Source: an uncultured Roseibium sp.
Lineage (GTDB): Bacteria; Pseudomonadota; Alphaproteobacteria; Rhizobiales; Stappiaceae
Assembly (NCBI RefSeq): GCF_947496995.1
Contig: NZ_CANMFD010000003.1
Location: 434,001 to 498,000 of the forward strand
Length of the DNA stretch: 64,000 nt
Direction of reading: 5' to 3'
In this document: piece by piece, positions 19,810 through 27,684 of the stretch
Numbering within the stretch: the first letter of the stretch is position 1
Layout: each line of letters starts with the position of its first letter
Made by a program: the position numbers and the translations under genes
The notes under the pieces: model-generated
The model's input: only the letters and a program-made list of their open reading frames with translations
Database searches by the model: none
Told to the model about the DNA's origin: nothing

Positions 19810-19951
19810 CGACACGACTCTGGTAATGCAGTTTTGAATAACTATAAGTTGGCTGTTATATATGAACAGCGGAGAGGCCGCGACGACGCCAGACGGCGCG
19901 GCAGGAGAGAGGCGCAGCGCGGAAGGCGCGGCGATAAAGAGGACCGGAAGC

Positions 19952-21169
19952 ATGGACGTGAATGCGTATCTGGAAGAGCGCCTGAGCCAACTGCACGACA
20001 ATGGCAATTACAGGGTATTCGCCGATCTGGAACGCAAGTCCGGTCAATTCCCGCGCGCCACGCGGTATCGGGAAGACGGCTCTATTCAGGACGTCACCGT
20101 CTGGTGCTCCAACGATTATCTCGGCATGGGCCAGAACCCGAAGGTCGTCAGCGCCATGCAGGACGTCATTGCCAAATGCGGCGCGGGCGCCGGCGGAACG
20201 CGCAACATTTCCGGAACCAATCACTATCACGTGCTGCTGGAGCAGGAACTCGCCGACCTTCATGCCAAGGAAGCCGCGCTGATTTTCACCTCAGGCTATG
20301 TGTCCAACTGGGCCGCTCTCGGCACCCTGGCCTCCCAGGTGCCGGGCATGATCGTTTATTCCGATGCCCTCAACCACGCATCGATGATCGAGGGCATCCG
20401 TCACGCCCGCTGCGAAAAACGCGTTTTCAAACACAATGACGTCGCCGACCTGGAACGCCTGATGGCGGCGGACGATCCGGATGCACCGAAGCTGGTTGCT
20501 TTCGAGAGCGTCTATTCCATGGATGGAGACGTCGGACCGATCAGCGACATCTGCGACGTGGCCGATAAGTTCGGTGCGATGACCTACCTCGACGAGGTTC
20601 ATGCGGTCGGCATGTATGGCCCGCGCGGCGGCGGTGTCGCCGAACGCGAAGGCCTGATGGACCGGCTGACGATTATCGAAGGCACGCTCGGCAAAGCCTT
20701 CGGCGTGATGGGCGGTTACATCACCGGCTCGCGGACCGTGATTGATTTCATTCGCTCCTTCGCCTCCGGCTTCATCTTCACCACGGCCCTGCCGCCGGCG
20801 CTTGCCGCCGGGGCCGCCGCGTCCATCCGGCACCTGAAGGACAGCCCGTTCGAGCGCAAGGCGCACAAGGACCGGGTCGCACAGGTGCGTGCCGCTCTGG
20901 ACAAGCGCGGCATTCCGCACATGGACAATCCGAGCCACATCGTTCCGGTGATGGTGGGCGATGCCAAGAAGTGCAAATGGATTTCCGACATCCTGCTGGA
21001 CACCTACGGCATCTACGTGCAGCCGATCAATTACCCGACCGTCCCGGTCGGCACCGAGCGCCTGCGCTTCACGCCGACACCGCTGCACACGGCCGAGGAC
21101 ATCGAACACCTTGCCGAGGCGATCAACGACCTTTGGTCGCAATGCGCCCTCGCCCGCGCCGTGGCCTGA
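19952..21169 (+). CDS. hemA: 5-aminolevulinate synthase
   Basis: 405 residues from [15 protein letters not shown], the length of characterised alphaproteobacterial enzymes; AGAGG lies upstream. It condenses glycine and succinyl-CoA to 5-aminolevulinate, the first step of tetrapyrrole synthesis by the Shemin route. PLP fold type I. Visible motifs: [13 protein letters not shown] (residues 51-63), [14 protein letters not shown] (77-90), [12 protein letters not shown] (137-148), [10 protein letters not shown] (214-223) and the Schiff-base lysine Lys248 in GTLGKAFG, the same number as in Rhodobacter ALAS. A single-gene unit, preceded by an FNR-like box. Confidence 0.96.
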
Positions 21170-21419: not shown

Positions 21420-22154
21420 ATGCGGAATATTTTTGCGGTTTTTGCCTGCCTGCTGTTTTTCGCAGGCCCCGTACATTCCGAAGAAGTGGACCTGGAACTC
21501 GTTCTGCTCGCGGACGCGACCGGTTCGATCGACGATGCCGAAATCCGCTTTCAACGTTCCGGTTACGCCGAGGCCGTGACGAACCCGGCAGTTCTCAATG
21601 CCATTACCAGCAACATCCATGGCAAGATCGCCGTCACCTATGTCGAGTGGGCGGACATGTTCTCCCAGGATGTCGTCGTGGAATGGATGGTCATTGACAG
21701 CATGGCCTCCGCCGAGGAGTTCGCCGCGCGCCTGATGGAGCCCCCGCGCCGCGCCTATGGGCGCAATGCCATCGGCGCCGCCCTCCTGAAGGGCAAGGAA
21801 CTGATCGACACCAACGTCCACAAGGGTCTGCGCCGTGTCATCGATCTTTCCGCCGACAGTGCCAACAACTGGAACGGCCCGACCATCGCGGAAGCCCGGG
21901 ACACAGTCGTTTCTTCCGGCATCGTCATCAACGGGCTCGCGGTCCTTTGCCGTCATTGTTCCGGACGTCCGATTGCCTATGATCTGGAAGAACGTTTCTA
22001 TCGTGAGATCATCGGCGGTCCGGCATCCTTCGTGGTGACGGCCGACAGCCCGGAAACCTTTGCCGACGCCGTCCGCAAGAAACTGATCCTGGAAATCGCG
22101 GAACGCCCCGAAGATTCCGAGCGGATACTCAATCAGCTGGCCCGCCTGGAGTGA
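21420..22154 (+). CDS. DUF1194 domain (von Willebrand A-like) secreted protein
   Basis: 244 residues with a signal peptide (MRNIFAVFACLLFFAGPVHS). The mature start VDLELVLLADATGSIDDAEI carries a vWA-like MIDAS sequence (D-x-T-x-S), as in DUF1194 proteins. Later blocks are GKIAVTYVEWADM, GRNAIGAALLKGKELID and RRVIDLSADSANNWNGP. A C-R-H-C pair sits near residue 177. Members are usually periplasmic and their partners are not established. No functional link to the neighbours hemA or the antiporter is visible. Confidence 0.85.
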   Translation: MRNIFAVFACLLFFAGPVHSEEVDLELVLLADATGSIDDAEIRFQRSGYAEAVTNPAVLNAITSNIHGKIAVTYVEWADMFSQDVVVEWMVIDSMASAEEFAARLMEPPRRAYGRNAIGAALLKGKELIDTNVHKGLRRVIDLSADSANNWNGPTIAEARDTVVSSGIVINGLAVLCRHCSGRPIAYDLEERFYREIIGGPASFVVTADSPETFADAVRKKLILEIAERPEDSERILNQLARLE

Positions 22155-22275
22155 CCTGGTAGCAGGCCGCTTCAAAGGCATTCACGGTTGCCACACGTCA
22201 CCGTCATCTGAATATGATTTGAGCTGACGGTGCGGACCTGCCCTTATAATTCCAAGGGCTTCGGGAGAAAGTTTG

Positions 22276-23529
22276 ATGGCCACCGGTCTTTTGATGCTGG
22301 CGCTGTTCACGGTCTGCTACACGCTGATCGCCAGAACCCTGTCCAACGGCATACTGACCGCACCCATTCTCTATATCGGCTTCGGCTACCTGATGGCGCA
22401 GACCGGCCTGATGCCGCTTGGCGAAGCCGAGCATCTTCTCAATATCGTTGCCGAAATCGCGCTGATCGTCCTGCTGTTTCTCGACGCGGCGCAGATCAAC
22501 CTGCAGATCTTGCGCAAACGCCACCAGTGGCCCGTGAGGATGCTCGCTCTCGGCCTGCCGCTCACCATCGCGATCGGAACTCTGGCCGCAGCGCCGTTTC
22601 TGCCGGGCGAGCCCATCATCGTGGCAGCTCTCGCCGCAGCGCTTCTGGCCCCGACCGACGCGGCCCTTGGCCTGGCCGTGGTCACCAACAAGGCCGTACC
22701 GGAGCGGGTCCGCCGGGCCCTGACACTGGAAAGCGGGCTCAACGACGGTCTCGCCCTTCCCGTCATCTTGCTCTTCGCCAGCCTCGCCGGCGAAGTGATG
22801 CAGCCGGGCTCGGGTGACTGGCTGGTCTTCGGTGCGAAGCAGCTTGTCTTCGGCCCCCTCGTCGGCGGTGTCATCGGCGCTGTCGGTGGCGTGCTCTTTC
22901 TGGCCGCCAAACGGCGCAACATGACGACCGACACCATCGAAGGCATCGGCGCACTCGCCATGGCAGGAAGCGCCTATCTCGCCGCAGGCATGGTCGACGG
23001 CAACGGCTTCATCGCCTCCTTTGTCGCTGGGCTTTTCCTCGGAAATGTCATCAAGGGGCAATGCGCCTTCATTTACGAGTTCACCGAAAGTGAAGGGCAG
23101 ATGCTTTCCTGGGGAGCGTTCTTCCTGATCGGGCTGACGCTTGTCCCGCAGGCTGTTCTCCATCTCGATGCCGCCAGTCTGGCGATCATTCTGATCAGCC
23201 TGTTCGTCGTGCGCCCGCTCTCTGTCTGGCTGTCGCTGACGGGAACGGACGCCGCGCCGCTCACCAGGCTGTTTTTCGGCTGGTTCGGCCCACGTGGCCT
23301 GGCCACTGCCCTTTTCGCGCTGCTCGTGGTCGATCAGATCGACCAGGAAATCGGTGAACGGTTGTTGAACCTGGCCGTCAACGCGGTCTGGATCAGCGCG
23401 GTCCTTCACGGGGTCACCGCCGTGCCCCTTTCCAGACTTTACAGCGCCCGCATGTCGGGACGGGACGGCGCTGCGGAGATGGCTTCCGTCCCGCCCATGC
23501 GTCCGGAAATTTCGACGGACCGATCCTGA
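22276..23529 (+). CDS. Cation:proton antiporter (NhaP/CPA1 type)
   Basis: 417 residues; the ATG at 22276 follows GGGAGAAAG, whereas the adjacent TTG at 22273 is less likely. Strongly hydrophobic with about 11-12 membrane segments. The CPA signatures are LLFLDAAQINL in TM3, ALLAPTDAALGLAVVTNKAVPE (given in part) and LESGLNDGLALPVILLFAS (the ND motif that binds and exchanges cations and protons), then GWFGPRGLATALFALLV near the C-terminus. It probably exchanges Na+ or K+ for H+ in the inner membrane, useful for salt and pH balance. No C-terminal RCK/TrkA domain. Confidence 0.9.
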   Translation: MATGLLMLALFTVCYTLIARTLSNGILTAPILYIGFGYLMAQTGLMPLGEAEHLLNIVAEIALIVLLFLDAAQINLQILRKRHQWPVRMLALGLPLTIAIGTLAAAPFLPGEPIIVAALAAALLAPTDAALGLAVVTNKAVPERVRRALTLESGLNDGLALPVILLFASLAGEVMQPGSGDWLVFGAKQLVFGPLVGGVIGAVGGVLFLAAKRRNMTTDTIEGIGALAMAGSAYLAAGMVDGNGFIASFVAGLFLGNVIKGQCAFIYEFTESEGQMLSWGAFFLIGLTLVPQAVLHLDAASLAIILISLFVVRPLSVWLSLTGTDAAPLTRLFFGWFGPRGLATALFALLVVDQIDQEIGERLLNLAVNAVWISAVLHGVTAVPLSRLYSARMSGRDGAAEMASVPPMRPEISTDRS

Positions 23530-23577: not shown

Positions 23578-25188
23578 ATGAAAAGACAGGTTGTTGCGAA
23601 ACTGAGCGCCTTGCCGGATCGGGATCCGCAATATGCGCTTGTGGCGAATGTCGACCTTGTCGTCGTGCGCTTCGACGACGAAATTTCCGTGTTCTATGGC
23701 CGTTGCCTGCATCGCGGAGCGTTGATGTCAGACGGTTACGTGGACGGCCATAATCTCATTTGCGGCGTGCACTATTGGGACTACCGGTTGGACAGCGGCG
23801 TATCCGAATACAACAATTCCGAAGCCCTGCCGAAATTCAACAGCTGGATCGAGGGCGACGACGTTCTGGTGGACGAAGACGAAATCGCCGCCTGGGCCTC
23901 GGACAATCCGCAACCTTTCGACCGAGAGCAGTATCTCGGCCTATATGCCGACACCAGCCACGGAACCGAGGAAGAGCCCTATAACGGCCTCATCCGGCAA
24001 TATGCCCGCGACGGACTGTCCCGAACGGGCCACCACGGCAAGGTCGACGCCATGGGTGTTCCGCGCACTCACCTGCCCGACTGGGACGACATCCAGATCC
24101 TGACCGCCCAGTTGCAGCGCTTTCCGCTTCTGGACGAAGACCCGGTCGGCACCGACATCGTCATCGGGCCGAATGCGCAAAAGCCGTTGCGGCTGGACAT
24201 TCCGCTGATGGTGTCCGACATGAGCTTCGGCGCCCTGTCCGAACCGGCCAAGATCGCCCTTGCGCGCGGAGCGGATCTCGCCGGAACAGGGATCTGCTCC
24301 GGCGAAGGCGGCATGCTGCCGGAAGAGCAGGAAGCCAATTCCCGCTATTTCTACGAACTCGCCTCGGCCCGGTTCGGATTTGGCTGGGACAAGCTCTCCA
24401 GGGTTCAGGCCTTTCACTTCAAGGGTGGCCAGGGCGCCAAGACGGGCACCGGCGGCCACCTGCCCGGCGCCAAGGTGCAAGGCAAGATCGCCGAAGTGCG
24501 CGGTCTGAAGGAAGGCGAGGACGCCATCTCGCCACCGCGCTTTCCCGACTGGACGGACCTCGCGCAGATAAGGGACTTCGCCGACGAGGTGCGCGGCCGC
24601 ACCGGCGGCATCCCGATCGGCTACAAGCTCTCCGCCCAGCACATTGAAAAGGACATCGACGCGGCGCTGGACGTCGGCGTCGATTACATCATCCTGGACG
24701 GCCGGGGCGGCGGCACCGGAGCCGCGCCCATCATCTTCCGCGACAACATCTCCGTGCCGACCATCCCGGCGCTCGCCCGCGCCCGCCGGCATCTTGACAG
24801 GCTCGGCCGTTCCGATGTGACGCTGATCATCACCGGCGGCCTGCGCAAACCGGCAGATTTCGTCAAGGCGCTTGCGCTCGGGGCCGATGCGGTCGCCCTG
24901 TCCAATTCGGCCATGCAGGCCATCGGCTGCATCGCCATGCGCGCCTGCCACACCAACAACTGCCCGGTCGGCATCGCCACCCAGAAACCGCATCTGGTGA
25001 ACCGCCTGCAGATCGAAAAATCCGCGCGCCAGCTCACCAATTTCTTTCAGGCGTCGGTGGAACTGATGCAAGTCATGGCCCGCGCCTGCGGCCATTCGCA
25101 CCTCAACCAGTTCCGTCCGGAGGACCTGACAACCTGGAAACGGGAAATGGCGGATCTCTCCGGCGTCGCTTATGGTGGGGTAACATGA
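23578..25188 (+). CDS. Rieske [2Fe-2S]-glutamate synthase (FMN domain) fusion
   Basis: 536 residues. Residues 1-95 are a Rieske domain with ligands Cys43-x-His45 and Cys62-x2-His65 (GRCLHRGAL...LICGVHYWDY). Residues about 170-520 are the FMN-binding barrel of glutamate synthase: PLMVSDMSFGALSEPAKIAL, GEGGMLPEEQ, FKGGQGAKTGTGGHLPG, LDGRGGGTGAAP and the three cysteines of the 3Fe-4S site in C-IAMRA-C-HTNN-C (C-x5-C-x4-C). There is no glutamine amidotransferase domain, so nitrogen does not come from glutamine hydrolysis. It is cytoplasmic and heads an operon of membrane redox proteins, which suggests electron exchange with the membrane rather than with NADPH. Reaction unknown. Confidence 0.9.
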   Translation: MKRQVVAKLSALPDRDPQYALVANVDLVVVRFDDEISVFYGRCLHRGALMSDGYVDGHNLICGVHYWDYRLDSGVSEYNNSEALPKFNSWIEGDDVLVDEDEIAAWASDNPQPFDREQYLGLYADTSHGTEEEPYNGLIRQYARDGLSRTGHHGKVDAMGVPRTHLPDWDDIQILTAQLQRFPLLDEDPVGTDIVIGPNAQKPLRLDIPLMVSDMSFGALSEPAKIALARGADLAGTGICSGEGGMLPEEQEANSRYFYELASARFGFGWDKLSRVQAFHFKGGQGAKTGTGGHLPGAKVQGKIAEVRGLKEGEDAISPPRFPDWTDLAQIRDFADEVRGRTGGIPIGYKLSAQHIEKDIDAALDVGVDYIILDGRGGGTGAAPIIFRDNISVPTIPALARARRHLDRLGRSDVTLIITGGLRKPADFVKALALGADAVALSNSAMQAIGCIAMRACHTNNCPVGIATQKPHLVNRLQIEKSARQLTNFFQASVELMQVMARACGHSHLNQFRPEDLTTWKREMADLSGVAYGGVT

Positions 25189-25216
25189 GCGATCGCGCGG
25201 TTCGGGGGAGGTCAAG

Positions 25217-25450
25217 ATGCAGACAGCAGCTTTGCTGATCGATATCGGCAGTTATTACCTGATGGCGGGAGGCATTGCCGCCGCCCTGTTTCTGGTGATC
25301 GGCCTCGACCGGGTGGAGCCTTCGGCACGCGGCTCCTATGCCTTCCGGCCGCTGCTCATTCCCGGGATCTGCCTGATCTGGCCGCTGGTGCTCTATCGCT
25401 GGTACGCGCTTGAAAAACGCGGACCCGAGACCCGGGCGGAGGACAGCTGA
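25217..25450 (+). CDS. Small membrane protein in redox operon, 77 residues
   Basis: 77 residues after GGGGGAGG. Two hydrophobic segments are visible: about residues 12-31 (GSYYLMAGGIAAALFLVIGL) and 43-60 (FRPLLIPGICLIWPLVLYRW), with charged ends. No cysteine pair suitable for a cofactor. It begins 28 bp after the Rieske-GltB stop and its TGA overlaps the ATG of the next small gene by one base in ATGA fashion. Probably an assembly or anchor subunit of the membrane complex; unknown family. Confidence 0.75.
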   Translation: MQTAALLIDIGSYYLMAGGIAAALFLVIGLDRVEPSARGSYAFRPLLIPGICLIWPLVLYRWYALEKRGPETRAEDS

Positions 25451-25620
25451 TGAAACGCGCCCACCGCACCGCCCACGCCCGCATCTGGATGGTGCTCGGC
25501 CTCCTCCTGCCGCTCACCTTCTTGGCGATACTCGCTCTCCGCCAGACACCCCCGGTCGACCGGCCCGCCGTTCTGATCGAAGCGCCCGCAGGCGGCACCC
25601 CTGCGGAGGCCACGCAATGA
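25450..25620 (+). CDS. Tiny membrane protein in redox operon, 56 residues
   Basis: 56 residues, MKRAHRTAHARIWMVLGLLL at the N-terminus, one membrane helix at about residues 12-32, then an Arg/Pro/Ala-rich tail ending EATQ. The ATG shares a base with the TGA of the 77-residue gene, and its own stop overlaps the next ATG (ATGA at 25617-25620). The tight overlaps at both ends are the main evidence that it is translated. Function unknown; single-helix subunits of this size are common in membrane electron-transfer complexes. Confidence 0.7.
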   Translation: MKRAHRTAHARIWMVLGLLLPLTFLAILALRQTPPVDRPAVLIEAPAGGTPAEATQ

Positions 25621-26684
25621 GCGTCCAGTACACACCGGTCATCTGGAACAGGAACAAGATCCTCTATGACACCGTCCTGCTGATAGCCGTGGCGCTCTAC
25701 CTCTATGTCTTCATCCGCATTGCTCCAGCGTTCGAGGACGTCACCAGACCGATTGACGGCGCGATCCTGAGGATGCGCGCCTTCGGCAGTTGCGCCTTCC
25801 TGATGCTGACCGTGATCCTGTGCATCGGACCGCTGGCCCGTCTCGACCGCCGCTTTCTGCCGCTGCTGTACAACCGTCGCCACTTCGGCGTCATGACGGC
25901 GGGCATTGCTGCGGTTCACGCCAACTATGTGCTCGGCTGGTACTTCAACTTCTCGCCGACCGACAAATATGTTGCGCTGCTGTCCTCCAACACCAGCTAC
26001 ACGCAGCTGCTCGGATTTCCGTTCGAAGCCTTTGGCATCGCCGCACTTCTCATCCTCTTCGTGCTGGCCGCAACCAGCCATGATTTCTGGCTGAGCTTTC
26101 TGGGCGCGCCGCTCTGGAAAGCGCTGCATATGTTCATCTACGCGGCCTACGTCTTCATCGTTCTGCATGTCGCCCTCGGAGCCTTGCAGGGGCCGGGTGA
26201 TCCGATTTTCACCGCCGTCGTCGCAGCAAGCGTGGTTCTGGTCTGCGGCCTTCACTTTGCCACCGGCCGCATGGAAGCCGGACGGGACCGCGGCGAGGAA
26301 ACCGCCAAAGCGTCGCTGCAGGACGCTGGCTGGGTCGTGGCCGGCGAGGTCGGCGATATCGACGACGACTGCGCCAGGGTCGTGACGCTCGACGAGGGCG
26401 AACGCGTCGCGATCTTCAAATACGACGGCAAGCTCTCCGCAGTCACCAATGTCTGCGCCCATCAGAACGGCCCGCTTGGCGAGGGCAAGGTGCTGTGGGG
26501 ATGCATCACCTGCCCCTGGCACGGCTATCAGTACAATCTCGCCGATGGCCGCGCCCCGGCCCCCTTCACCGAAAAGATCGCGACCTACCGGCTGAAGCTG
26601 ATCGGCGCGACCATTCTGCTCGACCCGAACGCCCTGCCGCCGGGAACCCATGTAGACCCCATCTTGATTGGAGCGGGCGCATGA
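25617..26684 (+). CDS. Membrane heme-b (MsrQ/ferric-reductase-like) protein with C-terminal Rieske domain
   Basis: 355 residues from the ATG at 25617; earlier in-frame ATGs lie inside the preceding genes. Six membrane helices span about residues 18-212. The block NRRHFGVMTAGIAAVHANYV and the later LWKALHMFIYAAYVFIVLH resemble MsrQ/YedZ and ferric-reductase transmembrane domains; His101, His171 and His184 are the likely heme ligands. Residues about 235-340 form a Rieske domain with Cys280-x-His282 and Cys299-x2-His302 (CPWHG). The fusion would pass electrons between a membrane heme and a [2Fe-2S] cluster. Coupled by 4-bp overlaps on both sides. Confidence 0.88.
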   Translation: MSVQYTPVIWNRNKILYDTVLLIAVALYLYVFIRIAPAFEDVTRPIDGAILRMRAFGSCAFLMLTVILCIGPLARLDRRFLPLLYNRRHFGVMTAGIAAVHANYVLGWYFNFSPTDKYVALLSSNTSYTQLLGFPFEAFGIAALLILFVLAATSHDFWLSFLGAPLWKALHMFIYAAYVFIVLHVALGALQGPGDPIFTAVVAASVVLVCGLHFATGRMEAGRDRGEETAKASLQDAGWVVAGEVGDIDDDCARVVTLDEGERVAIFKYDGKLSAVTNVCAHQNGPLGEGKVLWGCITCPWHGYQYNLADGRAPAPFTEKIATYRLKLIGATILLDPNALPPGTHVDPILIGAGA

Positions 26685-27442
26685 GCTGGAAACAGACGAG
26701 GGCCGCCCCCTTCTTCGTCGGCTACCTCAATATGGTGCCGAAACCGCTCGTGGTTTTCCTCTGCGTGTTTGCGGTGTGTTTTGTTGGCGGCCTGGGTCTT
26801 GCGGCCCTTGCCCTGTCTTCTACGCAAAACGATCCGGGCGATGGCGGCTTTCAGTGGGGCAACCGGTTCGAGCAGACCGGCATCCTGGAGCTTCGGCCCT
26901 ATCCTGTCTTCCGGGTGCCCGCCGATGGAGACACCCCTGCCCGCACCTACATGCTCGCCGGTCAGGGCAAGCGCGGCGTCTTCGAACAGGCCGAAGCCTA
27001 CAAGGCAGAAAGCATCAGCCTGCGCGGCGTGCCGGTCAGCCGCGGCGACCTCACCATGATCCAGGTCGGCAAGGTGGAAGCCGCTTCAGAGGACACCACA
27101 GGCTTTACACCTTCCGCCCCTGTTCCGCTCGGTCGCTGGAAACTGACCGGAGAGATCTGCGACGGCAAGTGTTACGCCGGCGCCATGCGCCCCGGCCGGG
27201 GCCTTGCCCACAAGGCCTGTGCGGATCTCTGTCTCACCGGTGGCATCCCGCCGGTCTTCGTCTCCTCCGGTCCTGTTGAGGGACGCAATTTCTTCCTGAT
27301 GGCGGACCGTGAAGGCAATCTTCTCGGCGACGAGCTCGATCCTCTGCTGGCGCTCTATATCGAAGTTGAAGGCGAGATCGAGCAGTTGGACGACCTGATG
27401 GTCTTCAAGGCGGATCTGGCAACTGCAAGGGTTCTGAAATGA
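26681..27442 (+). CDS. Membrane-anchored protein with CxxxC...HxxCxxxC motif
   Basis: 253 residues. One membrane helix at about residues 22-46 (PLVVFLCVFAVCFVGGLGLA) anchors a soluble domain. The notable block is at residues 157-192: GEICDGKCYAGAMRPGRG, then HKACADLCLTGGIPPVFV. It holds Cys160, Cys164, His177, Cys180 and Cys184, which could hold a metal, Fe-S cluster or heme, although no CxxCH is present. I recognise this GE-x-x-D-x-KC...GGIPP block from scattered redox-associated proteins but know no assigned function. Start and stop overlap neighbours by 4 bp. Confidence 0.82.
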   Translation: MSWKQTRAAPFFVGYLNMVPKPLVVFLCVFAVCFVGGLGLAALALSSTQNDPGDGGFQWGNRFEQTGILELRPYPVFRVPADGDTPARTYMLAGQGKRGVFEQAEAYKAESISLRGVPVSRGDLTMIQVGKVEAASEDTTGFTPSAPVPLGRWKLTGEICDGKCYAGAMRPGRGLAHKACADLCLTGGIPPVFVSSGPVEGRNFFLMADREGNLLGDELDPLLALYIEVEGEIEQLDDLMVFKADLATARVLK

Positions 27443-27684
27443 GCAAGCCCCCCATCCAGCGCGCGTGGCGGATCCTCATCATTTCGCTGGTGCTGACAGC
27501 GGCATTCGCAGTGCTTGCCTGGTACGTCTGGACCTATGCCAATATCGGCGCGAGGACACTCGCCCCGGGCACTCTGCTCACCGACATGCGGTTTTTCATC
27601 GGCCTTCTGGCGGTGTTTGTCGTGCTGTCGATCCTCGACAGGATCATCGGATTCGTGAAGTCGAGGTTTGGTAAAAAGCGCTGA
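27439..27684 (+). CDS. Small two-helix membrane protein, last gene of redox operon
   Basis: 81 residues with two hydrophobic stretches, about residues 11-31 (ILIISLVLTAAFAVLAWYVW) and 50-68 (MRFFIGLLAVFVVLSILDRI), and a basic tail KSRFGKKR. Its ATG overlaps the preceding stop by 4 bp. No cofactor-binding residues are apparent. Likely a structural subunit of the complex encoded by the operon; family unknown. Confidence 0.78.
   Translation: MSKPPIQRAWRILIISLVLTAAFAVLAWYVWTYANIGARTLAPGTLLTDMRFFIGLLAVFVVLSILDRIIGFVKSRFGKKR

Follow-up and report, generated by a model that had tools for sequence, protein, structure and literature searches.

A Rieske-rich membrane locus and the systems closest to it

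Members of the FRD superfamily carry four histidines on two helices and are known for transmembrane electron transfer, as described in passages of PMC3591440 and PMC5676040. A Rieske domain is already listed as a module on a bacterial FRD protein (Zhang et al. 2013, domain model M4, in an excerpt of PMC3591440), and an architecture joining CDGSH to a glutamate-synthase domain is on record in part of PMC5859297. Here, we describe a six-gene locus at positions 23578-27684 of a window of 64,000 nucleotides (the whole stretch of DNA that was analysed) from an uncultured Roseibium sp., in which a Rieske-tagged glutamate-synthase-like flavoenzyme stands beside an FRD-type membrane protein with a Rieske domain of its own. 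We lean, with a modest preference, toward reading the whole as a modular transmembrane electron-transfer system with exchangeable Rieske-tagged flavoenzymes.

An earlier note, made from the letters of the window, had proposed a six-gene operon joined by 4-bp overlaps and had known no named complex of this composition. All six open reading frames (ORFs) were found on the + strand across 23578-27684, and neither a named complex of this kind nor a description of the operon was found in the full-text literature searched. The 4-bp overlaps are present at three of the five junctions (P0003/P0004, P0004/P0005, P0005/P0006), whereas the overlap of P0002 and P0003 is 1 bp and a gap of 28 nt separates P0001 from P0002. 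FMN and ThDP in the following list denote flavin mononucleotide and thiamine diphosphate.

23578-25188, + strand: P0001, 536 aa; Rieske domain at the N-terminus, followed by a glutamate-synthase FMN/[3Fe-4S] domain; no glutaminase domain
25189-25216, + strand: 28-nt gap between P0001 and P0002; site of the Rieske-ThDP gene in congeners
25217-25450, + strand: P0002, 77 aa; two predicted membrane segments; core
25450-25620, + strand: P0003, 56 aa; one predicted membrane segment; core
25617-26684, + strand: P0004, 355 aa; six-helix membrane domain of the ferric-reductase/NADPH oxidase (NOX) type and a C-terminal Rieske domain; core
26681-27442, + strand: P0005, 253 aa; N-terminal membrane anchor and two OB-like domains; core
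27439-27684, + strand: P0006, 81 aa; two predicted membrane segments; mostly a genus-level accessory

P0004 resembles MsrQ (YedZ), bacterial NOX and ferric reductases in its membrane domain, which matches Ferric_reduct in Pfam at residues 57-182 (E=4e-11; 43.5 bits, the cut-off of PF01794 being 28). It differs from FRD proteins in carrying a C-terminal Rieske domain (239-324, E=4e-15) in place of the FAD/NADPH module, and in being accompanied by two tiny core subunits; where NADPH oxidases and full-length ferric reductases have C-terminal FAD- and NAD(P)H-binding domains, Pfam finds Rieske in P0004. Hydropathy gives five membrane segments, and the AlphaFold2 model has six long helices (mean pLDDT 79), with H89/H101 and H171/H184 on two of them. 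These four histidines are kept in 99-100% of 80 rows, as are H155, H213 and the four ligands of the Rieske cluster (C280, H282, C299 and H302). The arrangement of H89/H101 and H171/H184 fits two stacked hemes b in the four-histidine pattern of NOX. The heme-b/Rieske membrane protein of the earlier note is recovered here in its Ferric_reduct domain, its Rieske domain and its heme-type histidines, while the hemes with which it would be loaded are putative.

The Rieske domain of P0004 finds its best matches among dioxygenase ferredoxins and dominates the 50 Foldseek matches listed for the protein. It is placed after the last (sixth) membrane helix. Because the loop that joins helices 2 and 3 is rich in arginine (R75, R78, R79, R87, R88) and no membrane segment follows helix six, we read this domain as probably cytosolic. 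P0004 also departs from the cytochrome bc1/b6f complexes, in that it matches Ferric_reduct and no cytochrome b family and bears its Rieske domain at the C-terminus, on the presumed cytosolic side. A bc1-like complex was rejected since there is no cytochrome b of the bc1 family and the Rieske domain is read as not exported.

P0005, described in the earlier note as an anchored protein with a Cys/His motif, does combine an N-terminal membrane segment with an invariant Cys-Met-His-Cys-Cys set (C164-x4-M169-x7-H177-x2-C180-x3-C184), and all five residues are invariant both in 17 divergent rows and in 81 rows. The AlphaFold2 model (mean pLDDT 86) contains a single membrane helix and two domains rich in strands, which we read as OB-like because the best Foldseek hits are generic OB folds (best E=0.037, none at E≤0.001), and as likely periplasmic. 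The molybdopterin domain of MsrP, the partner of MsrQ in MsrPQ, was not found in P0005 or the other small proteins; none of P0002, P0003, P0005 and P0006 reaches the cut-off of a Pfam or NCBIfam family. The membrane segments predicted in P0002, P0003 and P0006 agree with the three tiny membrane proteins proposed before.

Single-domain relatives of P0005 occur at 15 distinct loci (L048-L055, L175-L177, L180-L183; ORFs of 102-194 aa), most with an apparent signal peptide, so that they look secreted. The Cys-Met-His-Cys-Cys set is present at 14 of these loci, and the ORF listed for L050 begins after the first Cys. In the ∼3 kb fetched around each locus, an ORF with CxDICP, which we take to be the SCO1-type motif, lies near 6 of the 15 and was not seen in the other 9. 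The one of these relatives that was scanned (as L070, in the same place as L051) has no Pfam match. SCO1 is a copper chaperone. As the single-domain relatives keep the residue set and an SCO1-type ORF lies near some of them, our guess for the metal that P0005 may bind is copper. If the electron path proposed below is right, P0005 would represent an uncharacterised family of periplasmic redox or metal proteins with 425 tblastn-confirmed relatives.

P0001 shares with the glutamate synthases (GltB, Fd-GltS) its FMN/[3Fe-4S] synthase domain (Pfam Glu_synthase, 195-505, E=4e-91), the GltB motifs GEGG, QGAK, LPG, GGTGA and CPVG, and the Cys trio C451-x5-C457-x4-C462, which aligns with the GltB of the same genome; its matches in the PDB are glutamate synthases. 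It differs from them in having no glutaminase domain, in its N-terminal Rieske domain (Pfam, 4-86, E=1.5e-11; C43-x-H45 / C62-x2-H65), in an operon without a GltD gene and in its linkage to a membrane core. The cluster-ligand residues are kept in 94-98% of 51 rows. The Pfam domains and the Cys trio bear out the assignment of P0001 as a glutamate-synthase-type FMN/3Fe-4S enzyme with its own Rieske domain. A glutamate-like substrate is plausible because the motifs and the Cys trio are kept, and ordinary glutamate synthesis is disfavoured by the lack of a glutaminase domain. N-methylglutamate synthase, MgsABC, has MgsA and MgsB as partner subunits beside its FMN subunit. No glutaminase-like or other named domain was found in P0002, P0003, P0005 or P0006, and both MgsABC and an ordinary GOGAT were rejected because the partner subunits are missing.

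The four-gene core and its enzyme partners

To follow the locus in relatives, a 17-row alignment of P0005 was scanned against genome contigs, giving 435 stretches; tblastn confirmed 425, and the best 80 loci were kept. The ORFs of relatives were called mechanically, and 22 of the 80 loci belong to Roseibium/Labrenzia, which are nearest to P0005 among named records and weigh heavily in the counts. A P0004-type gene was recognised in 79 of the 80 loci and stands beside P0005 on the same strand in all 79; in the remaining one (L155), Rieske pieces lie in two ORFs directly upstream of P0005. P0002 was found in 76 loci and P0003 in 63, and the two form a single gene in L142, L146, L153 and L161. 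P0006 was recognised in only 23 loci, 22 of which are Roseibium/Labrenzia, and its position is taken elsewhere, as in L059 and L060, by a different small protein without a Pfam match.

Genome counts give the same pairing. Among 289 genomes of the window's class, P0005 (E≤1e-27) is present in 14 and P0004 (E≤1e-30) in 15, with 14 common to both; seven further genomes, in which only short relatives match P0005 (E 5e-6 to 3e-4), do not enter the core count. Across 398 genomes of the phylum, P0005 matches occur in 11 (E≤0.001), and the seven strong ones (E<1e-90) are all in the window's class. The adjacency in 79 of 80 loci and the 14 shared genomes show that this association is not due to chance, and the gene set is conserved well beyond it. 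Conservation of the neighbourhood was one of the checks proposed by the earlier note for its six-gene operon. The genes are indeed conserved together elsewhere, but not as a fixed unit: P0002, P0003, P0004 and P0005 form the constant core, the enzymes are exchangeable, and the varying partners rule out a fixed six-gene complex. We note that Roseibium aggregatum PHM038 (L135), from the genus to which the window's nearest named relatives belong, has a divergent core, apparently of a second subtype: an SDR gene stands upstream of it, the arrangement known from Rhizobium, and the locus is without a Rieske-glutamate-synthase gene. A core of alphaproteobacterial type under an Oceanobacillus record title (L148) probably reflects a wrong title or a mixed assembly.

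The Rieske-glutamate-synthase gene is present in 48 of the 80 core loci, always on the core strand. A second enzyme, of ∼660 aa, joins a Rieske domain to a pyruvate-oxidase-like ThDP enzyme; its gene is found in 30 loci with varying position and orientation, and at least one of the two enzymes is present in 52. When the Roseibium/Labrenzia loci are left out, the counts are 27 of 58 for the glutamate-synthase-like enzyme, 10 of 58 for the ThDP enzyme and 30 of 58 for either. In 10 of the 12 congeneric loci examined, P0001 and P0002 are separated by the Rieske-ThDP gene; it is absent from L080, L085 and the window, and no match was found in the window's genome (G000) at E≤1e-90. The locus of R. 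aggregatum IAM 12614 (L091), for instance, contains P0002-P0006 together with both enzymes. The ThDP domains of this companion are like those of pyruvate oxidase and PoxB: their best matches are pyruvate oxidase models (25 NCBIfam matches listed, all below the curated cut-offs), and they align nearly full length with pyruvate dehydrogenase [cytochrome] (3eya, presumably E. coli PoxB). The companion differs in its N-terminal Rieske domain, which is preceded by CDGSH domains in some genomes. In G276, P0002-P0003-P0004 are followed directly downstream by a Rieske-FMN_red gene, so that core loci hold flavoenzymes of three unrelated types (glutamate-synthase-like, pyruvate-oxidase-like ThDP and Rieske-FMN_red), each bearing a Rieske domain at its N-terminus. 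A radical-SAM-like gene precedes the core in L064 and L065 (with a SPASM match for the L065 gene), and GltB-like and GltD-like glutamate synthase genes stand just upstream of it in L142 and L147. Other neighbours, considered as clues to the substrate and several of them assigned by eye, vary by lineage and include TRAP transporters and glycerate-kinase-like, CoA transferase, BoxB-like and radical SAM genes.

The full-length Rieske-glutamate-synthase enzyme is encoded in 8 of the 289 genomes, and the core is present in 7 of these 8 vs 8 of the 281 others (Fisher p=1.6e-9, uncorrected for kinship). Similarly, for the family of G312, sampled with 124 genomes, the core is found in 9 of 12 enzyme carriers vs 4 of 112 others. 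A set of 61 relatives has the core in 25 of 25 enzyme-bearing genomes of the window's genus and in 1 of 4 outside it; this count omits G038, truncated at the end of a contig, and G058, whose match begins only at residue 130. The core occurs without a P0001 match at E≤1e-100 in the congeners G001, where it lies on an 11-kb contig, and G024. Outside the genus, 15 of 22 enzyme-bearing genomes have the core. The two need not be neighbours: they are 17-19 kb apart in G069 and G203, and on different contigs in G183, G287 and G712.

The Rieske-ThDP enzyme is found in 12 of the 289 genomes, 6 of which have the core, and 6 genomes hold both enzymes. Of the ThDP genomes without the core, G061, G190, G292 and G144 also have CDGSH motifs, G063 does not, and G244 is the sixth. 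The ThDP enzyme was rejected as an obligatory partner given these core-less genomes, its absence from the L080 and L085 loci and the lack of a match in the window's genome. We also observed Rieske-ThDP enzymes with added N-terminal CDGSH motifs (L225, L227, L228, L229; ORFs of 797-925 aa) in core-less genomes.

The enzyme pair is not confined to the core, as haloarchaeal plasmids carry both. Plasmids of Salinirubellus, Halorubrum and Halorarius encode a Rieske-glutamate-synthase protein 62-63% identical to P0001, and on all three the Rieske-ThDP gene shares the plasmid. The haloarchaeal ThDP proteins are 57% identical to the L059 protein (two compared) and 58-60% to P0007. Transfer of the enzymes between domains of life is possible. 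In all, four haloarchaeal plasmids with Rieske-ThDP genes were seen, three of them also with Rieske-glutamate-synthase (L274, L275, L276, L278, L280), in neighbourhoods that contain DsrE, TauE/SafE, MerA-annotated or M20-hydrolase genes.

Proposed electron path and competing explanations

In the path that we propose, electrons would pass from a cytosolic substrate to the flavin and the Rieske cluster of the enzyme, on to the Rieske cluster and the inner and outer hemes of P0004, and through P0005 to a periplasmic acceptor. P0004 would be the wire, its cytosolic Rieske cluster docking with that of the soluble flavoenzyme, which would be P0001 here and, in most congeners examined, P0001 together with the enzyme resembling pyruvate oxidase. 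The membrane would be crossed via two hemes b, the inner at H89/H171 and the outer at H101/H184. On the periplasmic side, P0005, held by P0002 and P0003, would take the electrons at its Cys/Met/His centre, possibly with copper, and hand them to the acceptor. The substrate that P0001 would oxidise is probably glutamate or an amino acid like it, and that of the companion enzyme in relatives probably a 2-oxo acid. The membrane potential would favour outward electron flow, as in NOX. In favour of this path stand the conservation of the core as a unit, the kept heme-type histidines and Rieske ligands, the three Rieske-tagged flavoenzyme types in core loci, and the genomes that have both enzyme and core even where the two are not neighbours. 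The analysis shows the genes, their domains, the conserved ligand residues and the linkage, whereas contact between the Rieske domains, heme loading, topology, direction, substrates, the metal of P0005 and the acceptor are inferred. The idea that a cytoplasmic amino-acid or amine reaction is wired to the membrane fits the anatomy of a flavoenzyme-to-membrane electron path; the substrate part of it is suggested by homology.

Several observations weigh against this transmembrane reading. Outside the genus, 7 of the 22 enzyme-bearing genomes (G134, G785, G788, G804, G047, G056, G057) are without the core. One of them, G047, in turn speaks for the reading: a membrane protein with cytochrome c matches is encoded 25 nt 5' of its enzyme gene, an arrangement that also suggests periplasmic delivery. 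In G056, the neighbours of the enzyme gene are DmsC-like and 4Fe-4S ferredoxin-type genes on the opposite strand. Neither enzyme was found in the fetched flanks of 28 of the 80 core loci, although contig ends truncate part of these flanks, and the Rhizobium cores, also on plasmids, stand after an SDR gene instead. No P0005 is present on the 8.4-kb contig of G276 that holds its P0004, and no core gene was found in the three haloarchaeal stretches scanned on either side of the glutamate-synthase-like gene, the remainder of each genome not having been searched. Some relatives of P0001, ∼70% identical, bear CDGSH motifs where P0001 has its N-terminal Rieske domain. The CDGSH form (two motifs in nine genomes, one in G828) is the sole form in 10 genomes and the core is found in 0 of these 10, vs 15 of 22 for the Rieske form (G712, with both forms and the core, and G788, with both forms and no core, were excluded from the CDGSH count), but the Fisher p=3e-4 is no strong statistical proof since a tree of 36 rows shows a single evolutionary switch, so that the contrast is one event and not ten tests.

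The rival accounts differ in where the electrons go. It is unlikely, though the best of the rivals, that the locus encodes a quinone-linked respiratory dehydrogenase in which P0001 would reduce ubiquinone in the membrane through the P0004 hemes, with P0005 as an assembly or structural subunit. The usual companion enzyme best matches pyruvate oxidases and quinone-dependent pyruvate dehydrogenase, and the extra invariant H155 and H213, which we read as near the inner side, could form a quinone site; however, a quinone-site motif was not identified, the outer heme histidines are conserved as well as the inner, and the five potential metal ligands kept in P0005 would be needless for a mere scaffold. 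We found no specific pointer to the quinone pool. The conserved path instead points across the membrane, from a presumably cytosolic Rieske domain by way of four heme histidines to a metal-site-like protein read as periplasmic.

Somewhat less likely again is a soluble enzyme pair, in which the ThDP enzyme would pass electrons from Rieske to Rieske to a glutamate-synthase-like enzyme making glutamate from 2-oxoglutarate and ammonia, the core being an alternative outlet or inlet. The GltB motifs GEGG, QGAK, LPG and CPVG in P0001 agree with this, as do the 6 of 289 genomes that hold both enzymes (12 with the ThDP enzyme, 8 with the glutamate-synthase-like one) and the shared plasmid in three of three haloarchaeal cases; yet the window's genome has P0001 and the whole core with no ThDP match at E≤1e-90, so the pair is not obligatory, and P0001 has no glutaminase domain. 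We consider it improbable that the flow is reversed, from a quinol or periplasmic donor through the hemes to the cytosolic Rieske cluster, which would make P0001 a membrane-driven glutamate-synthase-like reductase. Heme wires are reversible in principle, and the GltB-like and GltD-like genes just upstream of the core would suit such a role, although this linkage is seen in two loci only. Moreover, passages of PMC5676040 and of abstracts describe MsrQ as giving electrons to periplasmic MsrP and NOX as reducing oxygen by transmembrane transfer.

We return to the modular transmembrane system. A more specific and distinctly more tentative extension of it is that the Rieske domain is a common plug, which unrelated flavoenzymes (FMN/3Fe-4S, ThDP and flavodoxin-fold) gained for the shared P0002-P0005 socket, and that P0005 may be a new class of periplasmic copper or Fe-S electron carrier, with its Cys/Met/His/Cys/Cys site on an OB fold. 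If the modular system holds, the locus would be a respiratory-type hub with an interchangeable dehydrogenase and a Rieske cluster as adapter, a layout absent from the literature searched. It would also give a function to glutamate-synthase-like and pyruvate-oxidase-like proteins known mainly by their domains.

Neighbouring genes

The transcription unit may extend beyond 23578-27684, with an antiporter as the first gene of the operon. The genes upstream are as follows.

22273-23529, + strand: Na+/H+ exchanger-type antiporter (Pfam Na_H_Exchanger, E=6e-38; start codon called mechanically)
21420-22154: DUF1194 gene (Pfam), 5' of the antiporter
19862-21169: 5-aminolevulinate synthase-like gene (by eye), upstream of the heme-protein operon

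The antiporter gene ends 48 nt before the start of P0001. Of the 48 loci having the Rieske-glutamate-synthase gene, 22 (18 of them Roseibium/Labrenzia) have an antiporter-type gene ≤300 bp 5' of it, and such a gene adjoins the enzyme gene away from the core too (L236 by Pfam, L234 by eye). We could not equate the antiporter of the haloarchaeal L276 with that of the window: both are Na_H_Exchanger proteins by Pfam, yet they have no BLAST match at 1e-5. Clustering of the locus ORFs places a DUF1194-like gene in 15 of the 22 Roseibium/Labrenzia loci and in 0 of the 58 others, and the 5-aminolevulinate synthase-like gene (by eye) is present in several congeners too. A recurring set near the cores of Rhizobium and some other alphaproteobacteria (L128, L129, L131, L138, L144, L152, L163, L164, L165, L273) consists of a TPR protein, a ThDP enzyme without a Rieske domain, OpgC and a CoA transferase. 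For the CoA transferase of L119, the closest NCBIfam model is succinate-glutarate CoA-transferase, with a match below its cut-off.

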